From Tubiluchus corallicola (taxonomy: Eukaryota; Priapulida; Priapulimorpha; Priapulimorphida; Tubiluchidae), in contig JAQGDQ010000252.1 of the NCBI GenBank assembly GCA_030141605.1, forward strand, positions 248,001 through 312,000: a stretch of DNA of 64,000 nucleotides, read 5' to 3'. Shown here one piece after another: positions 6,301-48,549 of this stretch (position 1 is the stretch's first letter; each line of letters starts with the position of its first letter). The translations under genes and the position numbers were made by a program. The notes beneath the pieces were generated by a model that was given only the letters and a program-made list of their open reading frames with translations, had not been told where the DNA came from and did not search any database.

Positions 6301-9300
6301 AGCATCAACTGCTTTCAGTTTGCGTCAAATTATGTAGTGTTTCTGATCGAATTGAATTTTTTTTTCTGCATTACCTGTCTGGTATCAAAATTCGTTAATT
6401 GATAATATTAAAATTTCAAAGTTATTTATTGATGATGCAAAGGTCAGATGGTAAATTCATCACGTCGCCATAATTGCGATCGAAAATTAAACTCTGTGAT
6501 CGCTAAGGGCGAGCATTCTTCACCAGAATACGAATTCATATGGAATCGAATTTGTGACTTTCGAACATGGATAAAACCAAATTTCGAGATTTCGAATCTA
6601 GATTGAATTTGAATTCAGTTTTAAATATTTTCGAATAAATTTTTGATTCCCTAATAAAAAGCAATGTTACATAGATCTTACATACTACTTGATTGCGTTC
6701 TACAGTAAAAACACAAATGTTTAGAAATTATTCACAGAAGCCACAGCTGAAATGTACTGATTGCATGATGTTGCACACATTTTAATGATAAAGAATGTAC
6801 GTAGTTATAGTGCTGAATTATCTGAATCTAAAATTTTAGATAGGAATAGGATTCGAATTAAAAAAACTTGTGCGATACTCACCCTTACTGATCGCACAAA
6901 TGATAGCAACCATTTTCTCAAAGTGCGATAATTGATTTTAATCGCATTCTTGTTCGAAGCAATCATATTAGCAATAATTTCTTCCTAGTCCTTATAGACG
7001 TTTTCAGAATTCCTACTCAGTTTTTCATTATATTTTATTGCTCTTAGTAATGAATAAATAGTTGTTAAACACTATTATATGCTGTTAGAATCACAATTGG
7101 AAAACCTACTCTATATTAAGCCCCTATACACAGTGTACAATTGCACATGCAGACACACAAGTTTGTTTTAATTTGTGAATTTAAATACATTAATTGTAAA
7201 TTATTTGATCGGGATCGTGATCGTGATTGTGATTGCAGCCAACTCTGAAAACTTTTCACAATGGTGATCACAATCAAAATTTTCTAATGAGCACAATTGG
7301 AATGGACTGCAATCTGCCACTGCTAACAAAACTTAGACAGTGGTGGATATTTTACTTTTTCATTTTTATGATAGCTAGAAACTGTGTTTATCTGAAAATT
7401 TAGCCACACACGAGCACTAAAGTATCTGAAGTCATCGTGCAATTATCAACATTTAATTGCAATCCTTTAACTGCCATGGAATGCTATGCATTCGATTGTA
7501 AACTACAAATTTGGGCTTACAAAACCGAAACCAAGTTCGTCAGAAGCTACAGTTGATGTGTTTCAAAATATAACAATGTAAGCAATGATGTAATCAGTTT
7601 AACAATAGCTGTTACCTTTATTTTCTATCCAGAATGCTAAAGTGCCAAGCTGTCCAATCTCCAATCTACTCACTCCAGAGATGGTTGGATTCTGGCCGGA
7701 TACGACCTTCATGTGGCATGGTGTGTACTCAACAGGAGCCTGGGATACTCCTACTGCATCAATCATTCTGAAAACGTTTGTAATGATTAATTCAATTCAT
7801 TCACCAAAATGTACAAGTGTCGGTGTTGCAAGCAAGTGTATACACTAAAATGTAACATCAATAAAATTGAGTTTACAATCATAAATAAATTATTTGGTAT
7901 GCAACATGTTGGTGTTGCGCTCTTGTTAGTCTGGCTGTTGGTCGGTATTCACAACAATCTGAACATCACTTACCAAAATTGAAATTACAAAATGTATTTA
8001 GAAGAATATTTGATGGGAAAGTGACTTATGTAAAGGAATACTTTTAGCAATAAATTTAGACATGAGAGATTCTGATCTTCACCCCCATTCCAGACATTTA
8101 CTATGTTCAGGCAAGTGTGAGATACAAATCGTCATGTTATGTAATAGATCTATGTGCTGCTACTTACGGCAAACTCAAATCATAGTTTAAAGTTTCGACA
8201 TTGGTTCCTCCAAATCGACACGAGACGTCGTACGCACGATCTCCCATTTCCAATATGCCCCATGCAAACTCGTTCATTACAATCACTGTATTGCTGTAAT
8301 AGGTCTGTTGGTCATAGCCCTCTCCCTGAAAGTTATAAAGCAGTGTGAATTAGGGCTAGTTGAGGTTGTGTTGAAATGTATATTTGCCAGGTCATATGCA
8401 AGAAGAGCTTTGCTAGATGAAGAAGAAGAAAGTAAAAAAAAATTGTCTTGTTCCCTATATGAAAACAAATTATCAACAAAAGTGTGTGGATGAGCATTTA
8501 CTTATATAGCCTGACATATCGGCACTTCTAAGGTTTACCTGGGTATCTGAATTTGTCCCACAACCGTCTAAAGGTAGAGAAAGAGTGATACGTCTGTTTC
8601 CTCGTCTCGGAACAGCTCGACAGTTTTCTGATTTGTACAAACCTTTAGCGTAAAGTGCACCCTCAAATGGTCTGTCAAACTGAACTACGATATTCATTGT
8701 TCCTTGGGCTAAATCACAGCTAACAGTAACATCTGAAACAATTATTAAAAAGTCAAGTGTAAATTCATACAAAGAATTACAAACAATTATCATTTAAATG
8801 ACCGTGTATGGGGGGGGGGGGAAGTACATAAAACTATTAGAAAGTCCGACTCAGAGATACAGTCACTGTTGTGGACATTGTTGGAATAGGAGGTCACATA
8901 GTGGTTATTGACTTCAATGTCAGCTTGCCCAAGGTTACACTCACAGAAAAACATAACCTGACTTTGCCTGGATTCTCCACGGGAAGACAACCTTGAAGAA
9001 AAGCTGGTAGTGTATCACATCGATATTCAATTTGCAAGATTAGTGCCTTAAGTATCAGTGGGTCACTAGCAGTTGCATGATATCTATTATTATTTCTAGA
9101 TACATCACACATGCAATAGTCATTTGCTTAAGTAATTTTCATGTACTGTCAACCAAGCAACTTATGCAAAACTAATACTATGGTACACTAAAACTACTAC
9201 AACTCTATGGACCCAAAAACGAAATTTTAATCATGTAGTTCCTTTGCTATTTGAAACTGAAAACATTTAAAGCAACTAGTATTACTACCAATTAGCTAGT

Positions 9301-25093: not shown

Positions 25094-28037
25094 TCACTCA
25101 TTTGCTGCCACTTGCTTTTCTGCCCTTTCACTGTCTTGCGGTTCAGACCTTGTTGATGGACGTCGATCAGGATGGTGAACCTTTCGATGTTTGATCAATG
25201 TACTAGCCTGAGCAAATCTACGATCGCAGTACAAGCAGTAAAATGGCTTCTCCCCAGTGTGTGTTCTAATATGAACTTGTAGGGCAGCCTTCTGCACAAA
25301 AGACGCATCACATTGCTCACAGACGAAATTCCGCTCGCCCGTATGAGTTCGGATATGCATCTTCAGGTTACCAGATGATGTAAACGTCGAGTCACAGTAG
25401 CTGCATTTGTGCCTCTCCCGGTGATCGGGCAGATGAGACTTCTTGTGCGTGCTCAGACTCGCAGGTTTTATGAAGGATGCTGGGCACTTGTCGCACTTGA
25501 AGCTGCGCACACCCAGGTGTTGGTACTTGTGCTGCAGGAGGGCACTGGAATAAGCAAACCTGGAGTTACACACATTACACTTGTAAGGTTTCTCTCCGGA
25601 ATGAACACGTGAGTGCGAGTAGAGATGACCTCGCTGAGTGAATCTCTTTCCACAATCAGGGCATTTATACGGTTTCTCTCCAGTGTGTAGGCGCTTGTGA
25701 ACTTTCAGTGAGCTAAGTGCTGAGAACACCTTGCTGCATTCGTCGCAACGGAATGCTTCTTCAACGTTCATTTTTTCGGGATGATGACTGCGACGATGCG
25801 ATGCTAGGTGTCCACTCTGAAAGAATGCAGCTTCACAGTCGCTGCATTGATATGGTCTCTCGCCAGTATGAATGCGCATGTGAACCTAAAGTGAACAAGA
25901 CCATACAATATTAACTGAATAATAATTAAATAAAACAAAGAAAATACTTAAAAATAGTAATGAAATGTCAAAGAGAACATTCACGCTCTCAAATTGTTAA
26001 AAATGAATGAATTTAGTCAATTCTCATTTCACTTAAGTATTAAGTGATAAATATCTAATAATAAATAGCAATTGGACAGTGAGGACAATTTCAATTATAT
26101 TCGGTTATTTCATCAAAAACAAAGAAAATGATAACAGACAAGATAACTGGATGATCCATAGTAAATTCTTGTTAAGTTTGCGATTCAAGCTTTATTACTA
26201 AATAATATTTATATCTTATATGATTTCATCATCACTGTTAGGTAATTCATTCACTTTTAATTTCTTCTTGAATGAACAGAACTAATCCAATTTAACCTAT
26301 TGTTATAAAAAAATTAACTAAATGCAAAACAAGTATTACAGCGATAATGGAAAAAGTGAATGCGTATATTAACACATTTGATATCATGAAGTACTTGTAA
26401 TGAATAAACCTGTATATTGCAAAGTGTTTAGCAAACACGTGGTGTCTGCCAGTAGCGTAATTCAATAGTTTACAGGCTTTGTACAGCTAGTAAAATAATA
26501 CTAAACTGTGATGATTTAGAAATGATATTCACGAGTGTACATGATAATGATTCTACCCTCTATGTGGTTTCCAAATCTCTATTCTAGTATTCCACACTTT
26601 TCCGAATTTATACAGCGTAGTTGTATTGTGCATTTGATTTTTAATTACTTGGTATGTTGACTGTTAGGCACAATGTGAATCGTAGAATAAATGAATATGA
26701 AATGAAGCAATAAATATGTAGCAGACCTTTAATGTATTCATTGCTCCATATCGTTTGCCGCACTCTCTGCATTCGAATCTCTTCTCACTGGGAAACCTGA
26801 TTGGCATTTGTTTCTTTATGATAAGTTCGTCATCATTGTCATCATCTTCATCACCTTCTAAAAATATGGTAGTGGTCGCCTCATCATCGTACACAAATGG
26901 TGCGTCAATGCTAACCCCTTCGTTCTTGATTTTTTCAAAAACAACTGAAAAAATCATCAGCCGTGTATTAGTGGTCAGAATTTGAACAATTACTAGCAAT
27001 TTGAGCAAACAACAGCAAAATGGCAATTCTGTAGAAACTGCAAGCCAGTAGATGAACAAGCTTAGTCTTATTTTTTAATGTTTTGAATAACGATAACTAT
27101 CTCTGACTCTGACTACATGCAAGCATCCAGAGCATTCAAAAATGATCAGATAGTTTCACTCAGAAGCACTGTGTAAACTGTAAGTTCTTCTACTACAGCT
27201 TTTTAGTGTAAGATACTAAGGAGTTACATAAAGTTGTGCTTGTGGCTGATAATCTAAATCTCTTGGAGGAAACGTGAAAACTATATACATAATTTGATAA
27301 GAAAAGCTGTGGGCTAGCATGGCTCATACGAGCCGATGCTAACTTTTAGAAAAATTGATAGTTGGATTCAATTCTTCTAAAAGATCTCAACAATGGCTGA
27401 GAAAACTTTTTGAAATACAATTGAGTACTTAGTTATCTACTGAAATCACTGTCATTCGCCAGTGCCTGAATAATGAACCAGCCAGATGTATCCAGCAAGT
27501 GTGTTTCGCGAATATAATTTTAAGTGCCACCTAATCAGACGTACCATCATGCTTCTTTCCCAAGTGTAGAATGAGTTGCTGCACAGTGTCAAAACCCTCA
27601 TTGCAATATGTACAATGTGCCTCGTCACTAGATTCCTCTTTATTATGGCTGGCAACATGCTGTTTGAAAGCATCTTCTTCCGAATAAAGTTTGTCACACT
27701 GCTCGCATTTGAACACTTTGGTGAACTTCAGTGCACCCCAACTGGGGTTGACCACCACGTTTTCATTTATCTCTTCATCATTCAGACCACTATGATCAGC
27801 ATCAATGTGCGAAGCCAATTCTTCCAGTGATGTAAAGTTTGTGTCGCATATACTGCAGGACAAATTGGCATTGTGGGATTCTTCAACATGTAGCTGTAAC
27901 TGTGAATCCTTTGTGAAGAGGGCATCACAGTCGCCACACTGATATAGTTTGAAACATGCATGTTGATCCACCATGTGCTGTAGAAGTAATTTAGCTTCTT
28001 CAAAAGTCTCACTACACTGATCACATTTGTGATCCAT
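25094..28037 (-). CDS. C2H2 zinc-finger protein with about 14 fingers, 500 aa
   Basis: Three coding exons (27545-28037, 26727-26944, 25094-25885) total 1503 nt with matching phases. An acceptor at 28061-28063 just upstream of the ATG suggests a non-coding 5' exon further right. Exon 1 encodes five spaced, atypical C2H2 fingers (CxxC...HxxxxH or HxxxH) without TGEKP linkers. Exon 2 encodes an acidic linker with EGDEDDDNDDE and the first half of finger 6; the intron splits that finger before HMRIH. Exon 3 carries the rest and eight more fingers, several joined by canonical TGEKP or TGERP linkers, then a polar tail ending VAANE. The C-terminal array predicts sequence-specific DNA binding in the nucleus; the N-terminal fingers may instead bind protein or RNA. 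There is no KRAB, BTB, SCAN or ZAD domain, and no ortholog can be named because finger arrays are too alike. Confidence 0.88.
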
Positions 28038-34471: not shown

Positions 34472-37400
34472 ATGTCACTAAGCCGCAAAGAAGAGGTGGA
34501 AAGGAAGAAGGCAAAGTTGGAGGCAATGAGGAGAGCAAAACAACAGCAACAAAAAAAGGTATGACAAAGAATGCTTCAGTAAGTTAAGTTATCTGTGTAC
34601 TCACACATTAGTTGTCCAGTTCGTATTTGCATTTTATGTGTTAAAGGCAAAGTGTGGAAGAGGCTGTTATGTAGAATGCCTCAAGGCCTTTTTTGGTGCA
34701 GCAAACAAATCAGGTAAAGTGTCTAAAATAATTTCTTCTACACTTTTCCTAGACATTACATGTTACAAAAAGTTTTATTAGGTTAAAACTTGTAGACCTA
34801 ATGATTTTGCTTTGGATATACTGTTCCTAGGCATTTTATAGAATGTTGAATAAATTTTAGGTAATGTGAAAGTAAAACAATTAATCAATTATTTTCATGC
34901 AATTTTCATAGGGATTTTATATAAGGCCAATTTTGTTCTAGAGAATTGTCGAAACAAGTCGTGTTTTACGTACTTGAAATCTGTGCGTTACAGGCGGTAA
35001 CTAGCATTTCAAGCAAATGTTCAAGTTGCATGATTGTTTATTCACAGCTGCTGTCTACTGTAGATGTTGTGTTCTTGGATCCATTACAAAACTTCGGGAT
35101 CCGTAAAGCTTGATCATGTTGTTGACACATTTGTCTTTGAAAGCTATCATAGGACACAGTTTTAAAAACTAGTAGGCTTGAGTTTTTGCATGTAGATGCT
35201 ACGGTTCATTGCACAAACCGTAACGGAGCCTGATTTCTCTTTAAATGGATCACACTAATTAAATAAGTCTGGCCTATAAGTCGTTCCATGGTTGGTTTTC
35301 TTTCATTCTAATGTATTAATGGATCTGCCCGGAATATGCAATTCTTATATTTTGATGAAATAAGTAACCATGACAACAGTAAACACTTTATATGATTTTC
35401 TTATGGAAACCATTAACTGAAAAAGAAGAACATGTCAGAGCAAAACACATTAGTACTTCCTTTCTGGTTGCATTTCATATAGGATGGATGCAGAAGACCT
35501 TAACTACTCTATGCTTAAAAGGAAAGAATGATTTTACATTGATTTAGGAAAGGGCACGGAAATAAAACAATGAACAAGCTTTTCTAAGTAACGAAAAATA
35601 CCAGCATTTGATTAATCGTGTAAACGATTTTAATATCATGACGAAAAAGTATGCTTCTCCTTATTGCCTATGGTGTATGATGTTGGTTGCTCCAACAGCT
35701 AAGCAATAATATAACACCCTGAATAAGAAGGAAATGCTACTAGAATGTGAATTGCTTGACATACTTTGTGATACACGTATACGCATATGTCAATTGTACA
35801 ATCCCATAATTATTCTAAATTCGATTACTATGTCATTTACTTGTTGCCACTGTGTTTATAAGAGCTTTTTAGAATTCCGATAAAATGATTAACTCGCCTG
35901 TTTTCTTGAACTCCTTGCTTAATTTAATACATTGACTAAGCTGTTTTATGCATTCTATACAGTGCTTATTGTGTGAAAAGCCAAATAAGAGTCGGATTTA
36001 TCACGAATTATGTTCATTTTATGCTTTGCCAAAGCTAATTTTGCATTCTGTATAGGTCCTAGCTATGGCTATTGTACAAAATGTGTAGGTAAAACGTGGA
36101 AAACCGTCTTGGTAATGCAGCAGCAAAAACACTTATTTCACACTTTTTCTGAAATGTAATAGGTGTTATATGAAATGTCTAGGAATTCTATACAATGTCT
36201 AAATGTTACACATTGCCTGTAATCTGTGTACACCAGAGACTTTCTAATAGTAGACATTGATTGGATACAAAATCGTCAGAAGGTTTAGCAGAGTTTCACA
36301 AAACTTGAAAATTGCACACATCAGACTTCGAACACTTTTTTCGATGCCAGCTTTTAGCCAACTTATAATTAATACTAACTTTGATTTAAATTTTGATCAT
36401 AGTAATTTTGACTTCATCAGTGACTGAGTGACCCTAGACGCATTTCAGTTTTTTGTTGATCGTCTTTTGTTAATCGGCTTTTTCTGTTTAAATGTCAAAT
36501 CTGCTTCTTGCCATCTTGCAGCCCGAAGAGTCGACACTGGCAAGCGCTTTGCAAGAAAAGGGTGATATTCGATCAGAAACGGAGGAATTGTTAAAATCGT
36601 TAGGTGTTCCTCTGCATGAAGGTAAGTTATTTAAATTGTGTCGAGCTTAAGTCTTATGGTCAGTTGAGTGATTTAAAGTCTTCTCTCTTCTTCTTCCTCT
36701 TCAGCTCTGTTGAATGCTTCACTATGTGTATGAGTTTGATGCTGTACTTAGTTGATTATTAAGTCATTTTGGATAAAAATGTTGCAGCGGAAGCCTTATA
36801 AGCCTTTCTGGAGGGCTCTGTCAGCTCTTCGATTTCAGCATATTCTATTAATGGTGCATTGTGAGCAGTTTGAATAACTAATAAAGAAAAATTTTCTGTT
36901 ATACCTTTATTGCTATTTTGTTTGAGTATGTGATGTCTTGCTAGTGATTGTAAAAATTGTAAAAAAGTATTTAAAAAACAGAAGTTTCATTTACATTTGA
37001 GCAAGATAACATAAACATAATGCACCATTTCTGAATTTAGCAAATTCATTTTCATAATTAGGTGTGACTTCAAAGCAAGATGTTTTGTCAGCTGGAACCG
37101 CAGCAAGTGAGAGTAGTCAGGTATCATCTACGGCGGCAAGCATGACGAGTGAATCCGGTGATGTCACACAACTATCGGCAACAGCAAGGTAGGTTGACTG
37201 TCGTGTATCTTATTTTTGGTGCTAGAGGGACACTGGTTACATTTTTTGTGCTGTTTCGATTAAAACAGAAGAAAACGCAGTTTAACGTATATCCGAGAAA
37301 ACTTTGCTTAGCTAGTTATTTCCAAACTCTACACAATATTATCTTAAACTTATTTCAAACGAGTTACCATTAAAATGGCTGTGCTAATGGTCATCGCGGC

Positions 37401-40400
37401 AGTTTAAATTTTTCAAGCTTTGTACACCTTTGTACAGCACAAGTTAATACAAGCTCCATGCGCAATAAGACAATATATAGCATGTATATAATACAAAATT
37501 TCCAGACAATTTTTTCAGCTTTATGTTTCTTGTCCTTTAATTGGATGGGTAATCAATGCGATAATTGATTATAATCAGTTTTCAGGCTGTCACAAAAAAG
37601 CAGGTGAGCATCTAAGTGGCAATTCTAGTGTGCTAAGTTACTACATAAAGTTACTTTGGTAAAAAAGTTACTTTGTTTTACCACAATGACAGCTATATTT
37701 CTTCTAAGATCTTTGTGAATTTTCTAAAAAATGAGGTGAAAATGGCATTGGTACAATAGATTTCCATTGGCAGCTGTCAGAACGAAATAATTGATGATCG
37801 GAAATAAAACCCAATTCCTAATCCTGGGAGATGTATTACTTTTGTGTAAACTAACTTGGTACTTGTAACATTTTGCAGTTATGTGATGTTTCTTTGTGAA
37901 AAACAGCGTTTGCATCGTTACTCGTTACATGTTACTTTTCCGTTCAGTAAGCATTGTGTGTGTGCAATACTGCTGAACATTTATTTTTCCAATTTAGTGA
38001 ATTTAATTTATATGCAGTTATTCAGAAGTTACTGAAAAAAGGTAACATGTTATCAGTAACTGCATTTACTATCAATTAACTGTTACAGTACTGCATACGT
38101 CTGCTAACTCTACAGCAGACTCTAGTTTCCTAAGTTTCTAGACTCAAGTTCCTTGCCCAATAGACTTTCATTGAAAAACCTGGTTGGGGTCACACGATTG
38201 ATTAGGTTAGAGTTAAACTAATCAATAGTTACTTGTTATTTTTAGCCCTGCTCATAGGCCGAGGCTAGGCCTTTCTAAGGTGACACAAACTAACATTCCG
38301 CCAAGAGAACAAGTGACATACTGCAAACAGACACAGACACCAGGGGAACAAATTGATAAACCATCAGGTCAGTATCTCTTCGCCCATATTCAGTACATAA
38401 ACTGTTGTTTACTTACATAGTAGAACTAATGAATAACCGACTTTTGATCACTTGTTTTTTCTTTCTGCTGAGAGAGAGATTGGTGAACTAGTCGTAACCA
38501 GCTTTGTGCAGTTTTTTTATGTTTTCCTGGACTAGGCTCTATGTTAATTTTGTAGTGGCTGGTTAGGAGGCAAGGAGTAGCATGTAGGAAAGTTTAATTA
38601 CTGAATGATGATAGCAGCTGATACAAAGACAACTTTTACTTACGTATTAGTAATTAAGTGAATATGGACATAATAGGGCTCCTGTTTGGTATTTTTTGAT
38701 AGGCTGCTTAATTTTGAATATGTTGCTGGGCACGCTGGTAGCTATAGACTTTTGTTATAACAAAAGTTTTCAAAAAATATATGACTGCAATGACATGGCC
38801 CTGAAACTGTGTTTTATTCTGAATTTTATAATGTAGTCAAATTATCACAAAAAACTCCATAACTTAGCCCAGTTCTTTGAAGCCACACAAAAACATAATA
38901 TTGAAATTGCAATAAACTTCAGATGCGAAAGGTTCAAATTAAAACAACATTCCTTTGTCATTTCTTTCTTTCTTACCAAAGGAAGCTCATTGGATTACTA
39001 CGGTGAGTTGAGATATATAACGTCACCTGATGTGTGACTTCATGCACCGAATCCTGTATTGTAATCGCCGTAGATGTATTACAGAGCTTTGCCTATTATG
39101 TCTTACTTTGCAGTTTTTTGTTGCACTTTGTTTGAGTCATATTTTCTTTCACTCTGCATGGCCACATCACTAGTAATTTCTTTATCAGTTTTAAAACCAA
39201 CTAGAAATCTGTCAGTAGGACAATTGTATTAGAAAAATAAGAACTGTAAGCAAAAGCATTTTTGATGCTATAGTTTTTATATTTTTATCATCAAATGTTT
39301 TAAATGATTGATTTCTTTACATCTGTCTGTGATTGTACTATGTAAATTTTTGGACATGCAACTGATATATTTATGTGTGAGCAACTTTTAGCACAGTTTT
39401 CTGTAAAAACCTTTAGATCATCCAGTCAGTCAATTGTTTGTCAACTTTTGAAAAGCAATACATTGTAGAATGAAGCATGCGAATTTCATAGAAAAGTCAA
39501 ATAAAGTGAAATCCAAGGTAAAAGTTGATGTCAAACTCACATAAAATTATACCATTTTATGATCTTATAATTATTACTGAGAAGGTCATTTCATTTTTAT
39601 AAGAATCTTCTGTAGAAGGATTCACATACCACTTTTATGTAATTATAAATGACTTATCTAAGCAAAGAATGACATTTTTTCTGCTTGGTCATTTATAGTA
39701 ATTGATCTTTTCTTTAGTATTATTTTTATAGTGTTTAAATAGTTTTTAGTTTCATTTAATAACTTTGTGAGAACTTTTAAAGGAAAAGCCAAGGCTTTTG
39801 TGAAGTTGAGCTTATTTTAATATTTGAGAAAAGTGTTAGAAAGTTTCAGCAGTAAAATTGTGATAAATGCCTCGTAATGCCTGATTAGTAAAGTCACTTG
39901 AAAGTCACGATCATTTCATGCTTGGCGCATTCGTTTTAAAAGAAAAGTGACGTCATGCGGTTACTGTGCACCTATCCTGCGAGTTTAAATTTTTACTGTT
40001 ACAAATTACTATTATCAACTATCCAAAATGTTAAACAAGAGATTATTAATACTATTTTTTTTGCTTGCCCACTGTGTAATGAAAAGCACACCCAGTGTGT
40101 AATGAAAAGAACTGCATGCTTGTCTGAAACTCAATAAACATCTGTAATTTGATTAAGTATATTTTTATCACTCATGCATTTTGAGGTGTAATCCTATGGA
40201 TTAAAGTTATATTAGCACTTTAAAGTTGTTGCTGATTGTTCAGTGACCAAGTTTTTACTTAAATATAGTTAAGCACAAAGATTTAGTCAGCTAGAATAGC
40301 AGAATTTCTGACTGAACTGTGCAAGTTTTGCTACACATGCCTTTATGCTGTCCACCAGCTTACATCTTTTATTTCAAATATGTCTGCTGGGAGGTTCATT

Positions 40401-41440
40401 TGGCGGGATGTAAGAATTATTTAAATTTCTTTTGCTTTTTAAGGTAATTTCAATATTTTTATTGTATATTAAAATCAAATGAACGTTGTTGAGCGCCTTT
40501 TCCTTTAACCATTTGAAATTTTATTATGCTGCTTGTTTCAAACCGTGATTGTTAAAGTGACGAGTAGTTTTTATAGAATGTGACGTTTGTGACTTTTGAG
40601 AACTGTATGCTGACAGTATGTAGTGAATTTCACCAGAAGCATTTTTTGCACTTTTGATATCACAGAAAACCTCAAAAATGTGCACGTTCACTTTTATTTG
40701 TGTGTATGAACTTCCTTTGTCAAAGGCGCGATTGATTTTTGGATAGATGAAAATCTGAGCTCCGTTGTTCTATAAGCATGTAGTGGAGCACACATTTTCC
40801 ATTGTCATGTCTTTATTTTTAACTTGTCAAGTCATTGTACAAATCAGGCTGTGGCAAGTTAGTTACTCCAACAGTAAACATGACAATTTAATATCTCATA
40901 AATTTCGTCTGAGTTCTGCCATGACAGACAACTATTTAGATAACTTGCAGTTTTTTCATTTGCCAAGGATTACCTTTGCCTGTTTCTCTTGTCCTTGTTC
41001 CTGCTTTTTTCACTTCCCTCTCGTTTTCTCTTTCATTTTCCTTTTGCTTCTCTGTCTCTTGCCACCTTCATTGCTTGTCTTGCCATCTTTTCTCTCTTGG
41101 TCATACTCTCTCTTTTCCTTTTGTTTTTTCTTTCATCTTTTTCTACTTTTTGTGTTTCTCTTCCTTTTTTGTCTTCAGTCTTTGTCTTCAGTCTTTTTGT
41201 CTTCCTTTTGTACCTTTACTTTCTTTCTCTCTCATTTTCTCTTTCTCACCTTCACCTTTTCTATTTTTGTTCTCACCTCTTTGTTCATTTTTTCTTCTCT
41301 CCTTTTCTCTCTAATCTCTCCCTCTCTCTTCCCTCTTTTTCTATCTGTCTGTCTATCTGTCTCTTCGTTTGTCTGTCTATCTTTCTGTCTGTCTGCCTGC
41401 CTGCCTGCCTGCCTATGTATGTATGTATCTGTCTGTCTGA

Positions 41441-41509
<69 letters not shown>

Positions 41510-44500
41510 ATTGTGTCTCTCCCATATCTCTCAGACCCTGAGATCTATTTTTTACCACACTATTGTTCCTTTCTTGCACTCTTGAATTCATTAACTCCTA
41601 CCAATACTCAGTGTCAATAAAAACACTTAATTTAATTCTAATTTGTCATTATTATGTTTTTTCGCCCTCTGTAAAGATGACCCTGTTTTAGTGCACAATT
41701 TTGAGTGGGAGGATGAGTTTCATGAAGGTGAGACATTTTCAAGTGATCATTTGGCAATGCATAATTAGCATCATATATTAGAACTTATTAAGCAACAGGT
41801 TTGAGAAGCATCTTGGTTTTAAGTATTAGTGGTGCTGTTTTATTTATGTGTAGTGTTACTAGTTTACATCTGTCCAGCTTTCCTTACTGTTTCTCAGTGG
41901 CTAAAAGAATTCATGCTCAGAAACTAAATTCTTGGCAGCTGTTACTATTGCTTAGTAATTTATGCCAGCATTTTGTGGGTTTTGTTTAATGAGTAGTAAT
42001 TAGAACTTACTGCTAATACTTACTAACCAATCTTAGCTTCTCAAAAGGTTAACTGAAAGTTCTGCAATGGACATTTAATAAAAAAGCTACTATGAAACAA
42101 TTACACAGTAATGAGAATTTAGAATACAGTGAAGAGTGTGCAGTAATTTTTTGCTACATGTTTCACTTTTTTTTGTATCTGATATGTTAAATTCTTTGTT
42201 GTTACATGCACTCAAGTGTGTGCTATGAAATTACCTTTCTTAGTTGCGAACGGTTTGATGCTCATTTTGCTTAGCAGACTTATAGTTGCTGAAAACATTT
42301 TTTTATGCTTGCTAATTAATAACTACTTGAATGAGTATTTTTCTAGTTTGCAAGTCATTTTCTTTTAATCGACTCAAGTTATGGTATGTTTAATAATGAT
42401 TTTTCTGTGCTTCCATTCTTATTGTCACAAAGGTCAATGAATCATTTTCTTATTTGTGTTATGAGAAATGGGAGTTGGCAACTATAAGAAGATCATGAAA
42501 TGAGCTAGCATGAAATTTTGAAACTTTTTCGGAGATTTAGAGAAATTGCCAAAATTTCAAAGTTACATAGGTTTTCTAAGTTTCTAATTTTATGTAGAAG
42601 CTTGTCAGCTCTTTGAATATTATTTCTCTACGATGACTTTTAACGCTTGTATTTTTTTATCTTAGGTTGCCACTATTTTTGCTCTCACGGTTCAGATTAT
42701 AGTACGAATTTTACTTTAGTTTTTATGTATCCACAGTGCCTTGCTTCTTATGCAATCTGCTGTCTGTATCATCGTTCTTTGCATAAATCATTGCACAGCA
42801 TGTAACAGATGTCTGTTGTATGTTGTAGAAGATGGGTGTTGTAACCGCTGGTTCACCAGATCATTCCACATTTATATGCACCTTAATAAATAAGCTATTT
42901 GTAGAATAACACTGCTTTATTGTAGCTTTTCAACCTATGTGTCTTCTTGCGTTTTTGCATGAAGGAACGCCTGCTTCGCCTAGAAATGTAGGCCGAGATT
43001 CGGTTCTGTTTTGGCTTACTAGAATGACATTATCGAAAATATAAACATTTTCTATGCAAATTTATTTACACCGCCATTAAGAAGCTTGTAGGTATTCTAT
43101 AGGTTCTATAGATCAGTTAACTAGAGAAAAAGCTTACTGCTAGTTTTGTGGTCGTCAAGTGAACTTTATAAATAGGTAATTGAATTAAAAAAATTAAGTC
43201 GCCTGCTTTAGGTCAGCTATATTATGTATTTTTGAGTTACGTACATTGGAAAGGTTATAATTTTGATAAATGATGTTCTTTTTAACTATTTAACTGTCTT
43301 GATTTAAAATAACTATGTAGCTATTTTAGAAGCAGTACTACATACCTGATTGTTTTCTTGCTATAATTTTAAGATAATGTTAATCTGGGCTTTTTTCTGA
43401 TTAATTGTTTCATAATTATGAATCATTTGCAATGGGAATTTGATGTGTAAATCCTAAATGGTCAATACCAAACTTTATGAAAAATCTGCAATCTTGTCTA
43501 AGCTCTTAGCCCTTCAGGTTTGAGCAACCAAATAGTGAATAATTTTATGGAAACTGAATAGATTGAGGAGCACAAATTATTAGGGTCAGCTCAAATGCAT
43601 TTTCATGGTCTGCATGCGGGCAGAAAACATTTGATTATATGTACGTGGGGTTGTTTGTTGAGCAGTTTTGAGTCATATTAACCGTGCAGTTTTGGTTTTT
43701 GATGAAGATGAGGACTTGGATGCAAGCTTGCCGGAGACACCGCCCATTTTGAAGGGTTTGCGACATCCTCTTCCGCAAGCAGAGCAAGCTAAGCCAGGAG
43801 GCGGAATTGAGGAGGAAAAGAAGGAGAAAGAGAAAGGTATGGCTCTCTTGTTTTTCTGCACTGTATGACTCTAGAAATTCTACGTTTATGTTTTTCTATG
43901 TGTACGAATTCGTTGTAGCACAAGCTGTTTTTCCTTATAGCTAGAAAAGTACCTAAGTTGTTTCGATCAAATGTTTAATTTTCTTAAATTGAAAATATTA
44001 ATTACTAGTTGCTGCTATTAGTGTCAACCGTGCGTTATGAAGCACCCATATACGTAAGAAATGAGCAAACTCGTTCTCTATTCCAGCACCACTTCGAGAG
44101 TTAACAGACGAAGAGAAACAGCGAATTTTGGCTTCCGAAGATTTCCTCCGTTTCTTTGAACGTACGACACGCATTACTGAGCGTGCCCTCTGTGAAGACT
44201 TCGATATCTTTAAAGACTATGGACTTGGTGATGAAGACCAGTCAGGAGGGTAAACTTCTATTTCTTGCTGTCTGTAGATATAATAAACTTTTCAGCACAT
44301 CAAAATGTCATTAGAATGATTTGATGAAATAATGTAAATGTACAGAAATATTTTTACAATCGCATTAGGGTGCATGTCTTAATGTTTCACATTATTACCA
44401 AATGTTGTTATTTTTTAGTGATATGCAGACACATGACAAACTGTCAGTGAACAGGACATTTTTCGACGAGAGATGGTCAAAGCATCGTATTGTTACTAGT

Positions 44501-47500
44501 TTAGATTGGTCAACGCAGGTAATATTTGTAAAAATAAACTATGTTGAAATAATAATAGTGGCTACTGTGAGACAGGAATAAATATTCTGGTTAGTTAGCG
44601 AAAAACTTGTTGCTAAATTTGTCTGGATAAACTTCCCTGTTTTTTCAAATTAGTTGTATTTTTCAAAGGTTGTGCCATTTTTTACTTGGCATTTCACTTT
44701 TTTTGTGATTCTTGTGAAAGTTTTGTAGATTCTTCAAAATTGTCACAAAGTTTATTTATGGTTTTGTCTGCATACAGAGTTGCACAGAAACATTCATGAA
44801 TATGTGCATATGCTTGTTATATTATATTATTGTTTACAGTCGCTGCAAAGTGAAAGTTTTAAAATAACACAATGTCATTCATTTTAGTTCCCAGAATTAT
44901 TAGTAGCTGCTTATAATCAGAATGAGGAAGTCGCACACGAGCCGGAGGGAGTGGTTTTAGTCTGGAACCAAAAGTTCAAGAAAAGTACTCCAGAATTTGT
45001 CTTCCATTGCCAGGTAAACTATTGGAATTGTCTTGCCTGTAGTCATTCGTGATTTGTAGAGCATATAAAGCTTTACTGTGTCTAGCGAATTAAAATTGTG
45101 CTGTACAGGATGGCATACTGGGCACAGGTAGTAAAATTAGGAATTAGTAGGTAATAGTATTAGGAATTCGGTCACAAAATTTGATTATTGATTAGTTATA
45201 TTTTACTAGTTAGTAGCAGGATATTTTCCTTTCACTCATTTTTGTGATAAAAAATTGTCTTTTTCTTTTAGTCTTCTGTGGTATCTGCTGCTTTTGCAAA
45301 ATTCCATCCACATCTGATAATCGGTGGAACGTATTCGGGCCAGATTGTTGTTTGGGATAATCGCACTAATAAGCGAACTCCGGTTCAGCGTAGTCCACTC
45401 TCTGCTGCCGCACACACACATCCGGTGTACTGTGTGAATGTGGTCGGGTCACAAAATGCGCATAACCTGGTGAGCATATCGACAGATGGAAAGTTTTGTA
45501 CTTGGAGTCTGGACATGCTTTCTCAACCGCAGGTATGTATTGACCACATTATATGTGAATTTGTTGTTTCTAGTTATTTCACTATACATTTTTACAATTA
45601 AAAAACTCTTTGAACGAGTTTACCTTATAGATGTGACAACAGGGTGTAACTTTTGTTTAGTATTGTGACTGATTAGTAACTGTGAGAACCTAGAGTTGTA
45701 TAGCACAGCTTTGCAATGTAGCCAAGAATCATTTTCAAAATAATTGTTTAGGACTGCTAGCTGAGATAAGTACTTGGATTGGTGATCAGACCTCCAGTTT
45801 AAATCCAATCTGTCCTGTAAAATATCGACAGTAGTTTGAATGCTGCATTGAATGAAAAAACATGTATTCTGCAACATACTATGTTTTGGATAATCTTTGC
45901 TTGTTTATGATTTACAGGAAAGTATGGAATTGCAGCACAAGCAAGCTAAAGCTGTTGCAGTGACATGTATGTGTTTTCCTTATGGCGATGTCAATAACTT
46001 TATAGTCGGTAGTGAAGAAGGGCCTGTTTACACAGCTTGTAGACATGGGAGGTTGGTGTCTGTGTTCTTTATCGATAAATTGAGCATTTGTTCATGTCAC
46101 CATGCTGAAATTTCGAAAATGGTTTAGCTTTTGTATTTTGTTGTAGGTTCCTGTTATTGTAACTAATATTGTATGATACATTTGCTATTAAGAGGCTTCG
46201 AAGTATGTAATATAAGGTATTATTTTTTTATTGCTTACAATGGAGATATTTTTTTATCTTGAACAGTAAAACAGGTGTACTGGACATGTTTGAAGGCCAC
46301 CAAGGTCCAGTTACAGGAATTGACTGCCATGTTGCACAGGGTCAGGTTGATCTTTCACATCTGTTCTTAACCTCTTCTTTTGACTGGACGGTCAAACTGT
46401 GGAGTCAAAAGGTACGGTTGGTGTTTCCTACACCTGTAAGACAATTCAACATTTATTTTGCAATTAGATTTTATCAAGTAAATGACTTAGAATGTCATGT
46501 TTGTATTTGCTCAAGTGCATTGTAGCAAAGAATCTTGCCACATTTGCATGTGTGTTATACATGCTTCTTAAAACAATGCCGAGAATATTTATTATCACCA
46601 AGTTTTTTCGTCAAGTCATTGTTAAATTCAATAGTCAGTGTTCTGTAAAGAAAAACCAAGTATCGAAACAAAATTCATATCTGATTTCTAGTGTGAACAT
46701 TTTTTGAACAACTCTGAAACCGGTTGTTGAGCATTGTGCACAAAAAACAGAAAAGCTCCATTGTTAAACTTCGTATTTCAACTGATATTTCATGTAGGAA
46801 AACAAACCACTATACTCATTTGAGGATAATCAGGACTATGTGTACGATGCTCGCTGGTCTCCTATTAACCCAGCCTTATTTGCAACTGTTGATGGGATGG
46901 GACGTTTGGATGTCTGGAATTTGAACAATGATACAGAAGTATGCTATCACTGATTTCTTTTTTACCTAAATAGAATTTTGTTTTTATCTGCATATTGTGG
47001 TTTGTATCTTCATGTATTGTGTGGCTGATTTACCATATGTGAAATGACAGGTTAATATTTTGATAAGCATGAGGCATAGCATACTGGAATTTATGGAGGT
47101 TGTTAACTTGCTTATAGGTATGCAAAAATTTGTTTACCTGCAGCAATATTTGAATAATGTACTGGAAGGTAAATTAATACAGGCATCTATGTGGAATTTA
47201 ATTCCTAACTTTTATGCTACAGGTACCCACTGTGAGTAAAGTGCTAGAAGATGGCATTGCTTTGAATAAATTGAAGTGGTCGCATTCCGGTCATATGATA
47301 GCTGTTGGTAACGACGTTGGGAAAATATATCTTGTTGATGTTAAAGAGGTACATACAGCTGGTTTTTCTTAAAATGCTTTTGAGCTGATAGATAGAAATT
47401 TTGGGTTGTTAGAAAGAAAGACACCATAATACCCAATGCCCAAATTTTGGCAATGCCTACATTTTCACATGTTGAGTTTTCGTCTGTTCAAATGATTCAT

Positions 47501-48000
47501 TTTTGCTCCCAAAGGTGTTGCTTTTGATGGAAATTTTTACATCAGCCAAGGTCATCTGGGCTTGATATCCCCGTGTGTGACATATTACAATGTGCTTTAA
47601 TATAAAAAAATAGTAAACACTAGGTTGAAAAAAAACAGCAAGTGCTGCTGATAAGAAATGATTATATTAATGAGTGTCAAATTGTCAACTTCTCTTTGCT
47701 TTGTAAAAAATATGCTTAATTCGATACAAGAATAAACTTTTTACATAGATTATTTATGCCAGTTGCAAACATTCCTTTAATTAACCAACATAAAAGAACT
47801 TATAATTACCAGTGCTTGGTTATTGTTGTGATTGTATTGCAGATTATGATTTGTTCTTATTACAGCAAGTTGCAATGCCCAAGAATGACGAATGGTCAAA
47901 ACTTGTGCGCACCTTGCAGGAGATAAAGAGTAACCAAGCAGATGCCGAGGAAGCTTTGAATCTCGCCTCCACACCGTCAATGACGCTTCCAATTCGCTAA
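34472..48000 (+). CDS. DYNC1I: Cytoplasmic dynein 1 intermediate chain, 654 aa
   Basis: Fifteen exons total 1965 nt, all phases matching: 34472-34558, 36522-36621, 37062-37188, 38246-38367, 41677-41727, 43690-43836, 44087-44249, 44419-44518, 44888-45013, 45272-45532, 45918-46051, 46267-46411, 46798-46938, 47223-47348, 47866-48000. The protein starts [20 protein letters not shown], the charged helix that binds dynactin p150Glued. LGLSKVTQT (112-120) matches the Tctex light-chain site and KQTQT (132-136) the LC8 site. An acidic linker follows, then [11 protein letters not shown] and a C-terminal WD40 propeller (about 285-620) with signatures [30 protein letters not shown] and [10 protein letters not shown]. 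It ends in the conserved NDEWSKL helix region. The intermediate chain scaffolds the dynein tail, holding light chains and dynactin for minus-end transport. Vertebrate paralogs are DYNC1I1 and DYNC1I2. Exons 3-6 are the variable, often alternatively spliced region in this family. Confidence 0.97.
37275..37560 (+). repeat. Dispersed repeat family B, copy 2 (dynein intron 3)
   Basis: It is collinear with 20340-20600 through AAACTTATTTC, AAAATGGCTG, GGTCATCGC, GCATGTATATAATACAAAATT and AGCTTTATG. No coding potential was seen. Confidence 0.6.
38982..39002 (+). other. Candidate 21-nt cassette microexon of the dynein intermediate chain
   Basis: TTTCTTTCTTACCAAAG precedes 21 bases that are followed by GTGAGTTG, a strong donor. 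Inserted between exons 4 and 5 (phase 1 to phase 1), it keeps the frame and adds seven residues, GSSLDYY, near residue 145 in the linker after the LC8 site. The corresponding region is alternatively spliced in vertebrate and fly intermediate chains. The full-length prediction reads through with or without it. Confidence 0.5.
39855..39960 (+). repeat. Dispersed repeat family A, copy 3 (dynein intron 4)
   Basis: TGTGATAAATGCCTCGTAAT is followed by AAAGTCACTTGAAAGTCACG, ATCATTTCATG and later GTGACGTCATG, the same word order as the other copies. It appears truncated on the right. Confidence 0.55.
40975..41525 (+). repeat. Long polypyrimidine tract with tetranucleotide microsatellites
   Basis: About 550 bases are almost entirely C and T on the dynein sense strand. 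They begin as irregular TTTTCTCTTTC and resolve into GTCT, GCCT, GTAT and a run of about 15 CTAT units (41458-41510). It lies in dynein intron 4, ending about 150 bases before exon 5. Open frames across it encode only Phe/Leu/Ser or Tyr-Leu-Ser repeats and are not genes. Confidence 0.9.
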
Positions 48001-48073: not shown

Positions 48074-48549
48074 GTGTTGCTAGTGACAATCGTTATGGTA
48101 ATTTGTTGGTTTGGGACAGTCTTTATGGTGATATGTTACTAGTGACAGTCGTTATGGTAAGCTGTTGCTAGTGATAGTTGTTATGGTAAGCTGTTGCTAG
48201 TGACAGTCGTTATGGTGATCTGTTGCTAGTGACAGTCGTTATGGTAAGCTGTTGCTAGTGTCAGTCGTTATGGTAAGCTGTTGCTAGTGACAGTCGTTAT
48301 GGTAAGCTGTTGCTAGTGACAGTCGTTATGGTAAGCTGTTGCTAGTGACAGTCGTTATGGTAAGCTGTTGCTAGTGATAGTCGTTATGGTGATCTGTTGC
48401 TAGTGACAGTCGTTATGGTAAGCTGTTGCTAGTGACAATCGTTATGGTAAGCTGTTGCTAGTGACAGTCGTTATGGTGATATGTTACTAGTGACAGTTAT
48501 TATGGTGATCTGTTGCTAGTGACAGTTATTATGGTGAGTTGTTGCTGAT
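48074..48549 (+). repeat. 29-bp minisatellite, about 16 units, in the dynein 3' flank
   Basis: The consensus unit is TGTTGCTAGTGACAGTCGTTATGGTAAGC. Most units are close copies, with two subtypes ending GGTAAGC or GGTGATC, and two units shorter or degenerate near 48105-48150. The array starts 74 bases past the dynein stop, so it is probably in its 3' UTR; the first AATAAA seen downstream is at 48971. Confidence 0.93.

Follow-up and report, generated by a model that had tools for sequence, protein, structure and literature searches.

A candidate 21-nt cassette microexon in the dynein intermediate chain gene of Tubiluchus corallicola

We describe a 21-nt segment in the cytoplasmic dynein-1 intermediate chain gene (DYNC1I) of Tubiluchus corallicola that may be a cassette microexon encoding GSSLDYY. 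It lies in the intron 3' of exon 4, which encodes the Tctex/LC8-binding segment, and its inclusion keeps the reading frame. We give it a probability of about 0.45 of being a genuine cassette microexon, a figure that is a judgement from partial tests and was not computed. The candidate is plausible, at about even odds, and of a common, well-known kind. All positions refer to the window, the whole 64-kb stretch of DNA that was analysed.

Results

The dynein intermediate chain gene

Judged by its domain and homology matches, the gene is a cytoplasmic dynein-1 intermediate chain. The features that define it are the following:

34472 to 48000 (+): cytoplasmic dynein-1 intermediate chain coding region, 15 exons with exon 5 counted and the candidate left out
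38246 to 38367 (+): exon 4, Tctex and LC8 (YCKQTQTP) binding segment, ending in phase 1; Pfam Dynein_IC2 match, similar to the solved intermediate chain peptides 2pg1 and 3fm7
44087 to 44249 (+): exon 7, LC7/Roadblock-binding helix, matching 3l9k_W and human DYNC1I2

The gene is intact and complete, with GT-AG at all exon borders and consistent phases in the frame check. The model comprises 14 exons and about 638 aa when exon 5 is skipped too; with the stop symbol counted, its lengths are 638 without exon 5 and 655 with it. Exon 4 matched Pfam Dynein_IC2 (PF11540) at 61.6 bits (cut-off 25), the C-terminal WD40 propeller scored about 770 bits to human DYNC1I2 vs. 116 bits to the best axonemal intermediate chain, and the LC7/Roadblock helix (query 102-138) matched the dynein intermediate chain peptide 3l9k_W at 28.4 bits. 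DYNC1I is present as a single copy in the 344-Mb genome: the search for a second haplotype, paralogue or retrocopy of the locus, sought there for comparison, found none, and scans of viral, prokaryote and plasmid collections found no intermediate chain relatives or related loci. Among the Hox genes of this genome are a Ubx/Lox4-like homeodomain with a UbdA-type peptide behind it, and homeodomains of Post1/Post2-like type; taken by themselves, these would point most probably to a lophotrochozoan. A COX1 search had no match.

A minisatellite (48075-48546, 29 bp x 16 copies) begins 75 bases past the DYNC1I stop codon and is possibly in the 3' UTR. Elsewhere in the window, we recognised by eye C2H2 zinc-finger coding ORFs at 25094-28037 (-) and, by eye only, an ORF at 8473-8793 (-) that looks like the beginning of a ZP domain (VTVSCDLAQGTMNIVVQFDRPFEGALYAKGLYKSENC).

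Sequence and frame of the candidate

38982 to 39002 (+): candidate cassette microexon, 21 nt, phase 1-1, encoding GSSLDYY; sequence, frame check and splice scores
38952 to 38981 (+): candidate pyrimidine tract and AAAG acceptor, with tandem TTTC units and PTB-like TCTT at -19, -15 and -11
39003 to 39008 (+): candidate donor GTGAGT; sequence and splice score
39155 to 39160 (+): RBFOX-type TGCATG, 153 nt downstream of the candidate

The acceptor reads ...TTCCTTTGTCATTTCTTTCTTTCTTACCAAAG, the exon GAAGCTCATTGGATTACTACG and the donor GTGAGT. GSSLDYY contains no stop, and the frame is kept with all neighbouring exons. The flanking junctions at 38367 and 41677 agree with the gene model. The original prediction had all coordinates of the candidate and its junctions right, as well as the gene and the location immediately following the Tctex/LC8 segment (Pfam, frame check); sequence and frame check also bear out the symmetric phase-1 length of 21 nt and the in-frame inclusion of GSSLDYY. 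It had placed the segment between exons 4 and 5: the candidate does follow exon 4, while exon 5 is itself a prediction and a splice to exon 6 would keep the frame just as well. The segment is unique, with one genomic match, outside repeats, and on this single match a repeat or transposon origin was rejected.

Splice signals

We scored splice sites with matrices built from the other sites of DYNC1I plus a generic prior. The candidate donor scored 8.5 bits, about average for the gene (real donors 6.5-12.5). The candidate acceptor scored 6.3 bits, below the gene average (real acceptors mostly 6.5-13.7) because of the A at -3 (AAAG). Thus, of the pyrimidine-rich acceptor and strong donor initially proposed, the tract holds up, with a pyrimidine content of 0.75 that is the highest among all acceptors of the gene, but the donor is only average and the acceptor below average. 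The candidate is no longer than 27 nt, preserves the frame and has splice scores that lie inside or close to those of real sites; it thus has the form of a cassette microexon.

Upstream of the acceptor, 50 nt are free of AG. No YTNAY branch point was found at -15 to -60, as is also the case for three accepted exons of the gene, and no UGC motif within 40 nt of the acceptor, the nearest being at -58. The RBFOX-type TGCATG was dropped as evidence: at a gene-wide rate of 0.67/kb, its presence is expected by chance in about 1 in 5 cases.

Expectation by chance

Across the 64-kb window, we counted 13 segments on the + strand (the candidate among them) and 11 on the - strand that were no longer than 30 nt and scored at least as high as the candidate. 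Equally good in-frame, stop-free candidates expected in intron 4 amounted to 0.15 against the real background and 0.09 in dinucleotide shuffles. Between exons 4 and 6 (5.3 kb) the candidate is the only one of its quality, with 0.24 expected. Its codon composition is neutral, since 13% of stop-free intronic windows are as high and 18% of exonic windows as low. The splice signals alone are not clearly beyond chance, with a chance probability of about 0.1-0.2 in intron 4. The original observation is real, and it goes as far as suggesting an exon.

The same scoring drew attention to two other short in-frame segments of the gene:

37586 to 37603 (+): intron 3, 18-nt candidate RLSQKS, acceptor 6.2 and donor 11.7 bits, outscoring the GSSLDYY candidate
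34702 to 34713 (+): intron 1, 12-nt candidate QTNQ, score above that of the GSSLDYY candidate

The RLSQKS segment sits just upstream of the Tctex/LC8 exon, where mammalian intermediate chains vary by splicing.

The linker between the LC8 and Roadblock sites

40980 to 41519 (+): pyrimidine-rich block of 540 nt between the candidate and exon 5, 0.68-0.93 C+T, strand-asymmetric, ending in TCTG/TCTA repeats
41677 to 41727 (+): predicted exon 5, 51 nt, phase 1-1, with a very weak acceptor and exon-like codon use
43690 to 43836 (+): exon 6, 147 nt, phase 1-1; frame check and splice scores

From the LC8 site in exon 4 to the Roadblock site in exon 7, all units of the gene, namely the candidate and exons 5 and 6, are of phase 1-1. 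Any combination of the three is in frame, and therefore the candidate may join exon 6 directly or exon 5. The pyrimidine-rich block is open over long distances in each of the three frames, due to its composition.

Scored without training on them, the acceptors of exons 5 and 6 are weaker than all others in the gene, which is what one would expect where splicing is regulated. The acceptor of exon 5 is the weakest of all, at 1.5 bits; its codon use is exon-like, just 0.3% of stop-free intronic windows being as high. We regard exon 5 as predicted and its status as uncertain. Exon 6 has a second in-phase acceptor at 43666, 24 nt upstream, whose use adds VLSHINRA; its two acceptors are both weak, at 3.0 and 1.8 bits. 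We rejected an origin of exon 5 by tandem duplication of exon 6 (shuffle p 0.53 for protein and 0.28 for DNA).

Exon 6 aligns from its first residue, VLxFD, with the Drosophila linker (shuffle p 0.006), which carries a VLAFD module that we take to be related to the start of exon 6. This alignment supports the assigned border of exon 6, not the microexon itself, and the candidate would therefore fall on a module boundary.

Discussion

We suggest that the 21-nt segment may be an optional cassette microexon, one of several phase-1 modules together with exons 5 and 6. Such modules would then make up the disordered linker that joins the LC8 and Roadblock/LC7 sites, with GSSLDYY most plausibly placed right in front of the exon 6 module VLVFD, or alternatively before exon 5. 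Gene, frame, position and compatible splice sites are all in place for this; the spliceosome would have to use these sites, and to use them in a regulated manner. Inclusion would give a longer linker with two extra tyrosines and leave all light-chain sites untouched.

The segment could instead be a chance pseudo-exon: the pyrimidine run with its AG and the GTGAGT would have come to stand at a distance of 21 nt, in an open phase, by accident, and would never be spliced together. We give this explanation a little under an even chance. Equally good short segments occur on both strands of the window (13 and 11), intron 4 alone is expected to hold 0.15 in-frame candidates, introns 1 and 3 of DYNC1I contain two with higher scores, and the weak acceptor lacks a branch-point consensus. 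However, the candidate stands as the sole one of its kind between exons 4 and 6, and both its phase and its position fall on a module boundary amid other weak, symmetric exons. If the segment is an exon, it could also be included always, hence without any switch. An acceptor that outscores those of exons 5 and 6, together with a normal donor, is compatible with constitutive inclusion, which we nevertheless consider very improbable: the acceptor is under the gene average, the frame stays intact when the segment is skipped, and exons this short, at 21 nt, are seldom constitutive.

A more specific version of the cassette reading would place the segment among the neural microexons of the bilaterian eMIC/Srrm234 programme, and this seems improbable to us. 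The eMIC-dependent neural microexons have a UGC near the acceptor, a strong branch point and an AG-exclusion zone (PMC8797185). The candidate is like them in its length (<27 nt), frame preservation, long TTTC-rich pyrimidine tract and AG-free zone, whereas no UGC lies close to its acceptor and no strong branch point of the CUAAY type was found. We would not call it a neural microexon. The eMIC domain (SRRM_C, PF15230) had no match in the genome and none in the control genomes either, so that the search was without a positive control. The fly and mouse programmes have almost no exons in common, and therefore the neuronal status of the gene in mammals is no argument here.

Returning to the optional cassette microexon, its effect would be sought in the linker itself. 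A review describes the roughly 100-residue region from LC8 to Roadblock as disordered and asks whether any partners exist (PMC10886578). In a fungal chain, linker length between light-chain sites affects how the intermediate chain assembles, and the binding of p150 and NudE is governed by the chain closing on itself (PMC9771362). From these studies, the likeliest function of the exon, if used, would be a linker adjustment, possibly acting on autoinhibition, or an added short phosphorylatable motif. An effect on dynactin binding had also been proposed; it would be less direct than suggested because p150 and NudE bind the N-terminal helices of the intermediate chain (PMC9771362). We dismissed the tyrosine motif (LDYYVL, resembling an ITIM or LIR-type pattern), as patterns this short occur too often to be informative, and a possible 'DYYVL' pattern in invertebrate intermediate chains found no support in literature text and was not counted as evidence.

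If the exon is used, an isoform choice would be placed between the LC8 and Roadblock sites, in a disordered stretch without an established partner. It would offer a simple means to ask whether linker length or linker tyrosines tune dynein regulation. The more interesting possibility than the microexon alone is that the whole linker is a modular, wholly frame-neutral splice cassette region, made of the microexon, exon 5 and exon 6 with its two acceptors. Many variants could then set chain fold-back and regulator choice, an arrangement not described in vertebrates downstream of the light-chain sites. We hold this broader proposal to be unlikely on balance, and put it forward tentatively.

Comparison with known dynein intermediate chains

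In Drosophila, the splice variation of the short wing/Cdic intermediate chain probably lies upstream of the LC8 site as well, unlike the candidate of T. corallicola. The two species are alike in having a single intermediate chain gene and, in the fly, a linker with a related VLAFD module. We know of no GSSLDYY-like segment in Drosophila intermediate chains. A later review, citing Nurminsky et al. 1998, credits the fly gene with at least 10 splice forms that are tissue-specific (PMC10886578). Our literature search found no paper linking microexons to the dynein intermediate chain.

In mouse and human, it is the stretch joining the N-terminal coiled coil to the Tctex/LC8 sites that varies by splicing in DYNC1I1 and DYNC1I2 (Kuta et al. 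2010, PMC2908135). The original prediction took the region of the candidate to be one with known isoform differences in other animals; this is not supported, as the mammalian variable segment is upstream of the Tctex/LC8 sites (PMC2908135) and the candidate downstream of them. Both cases belong to the same gene family, and in both a disordered stretch beside unchanged light-chain sites is, or in T. corallicola would be, altered by splicing. Unlike the mammalian variation, that of T. corallicola would fall between the LC8 and LC7 sites.
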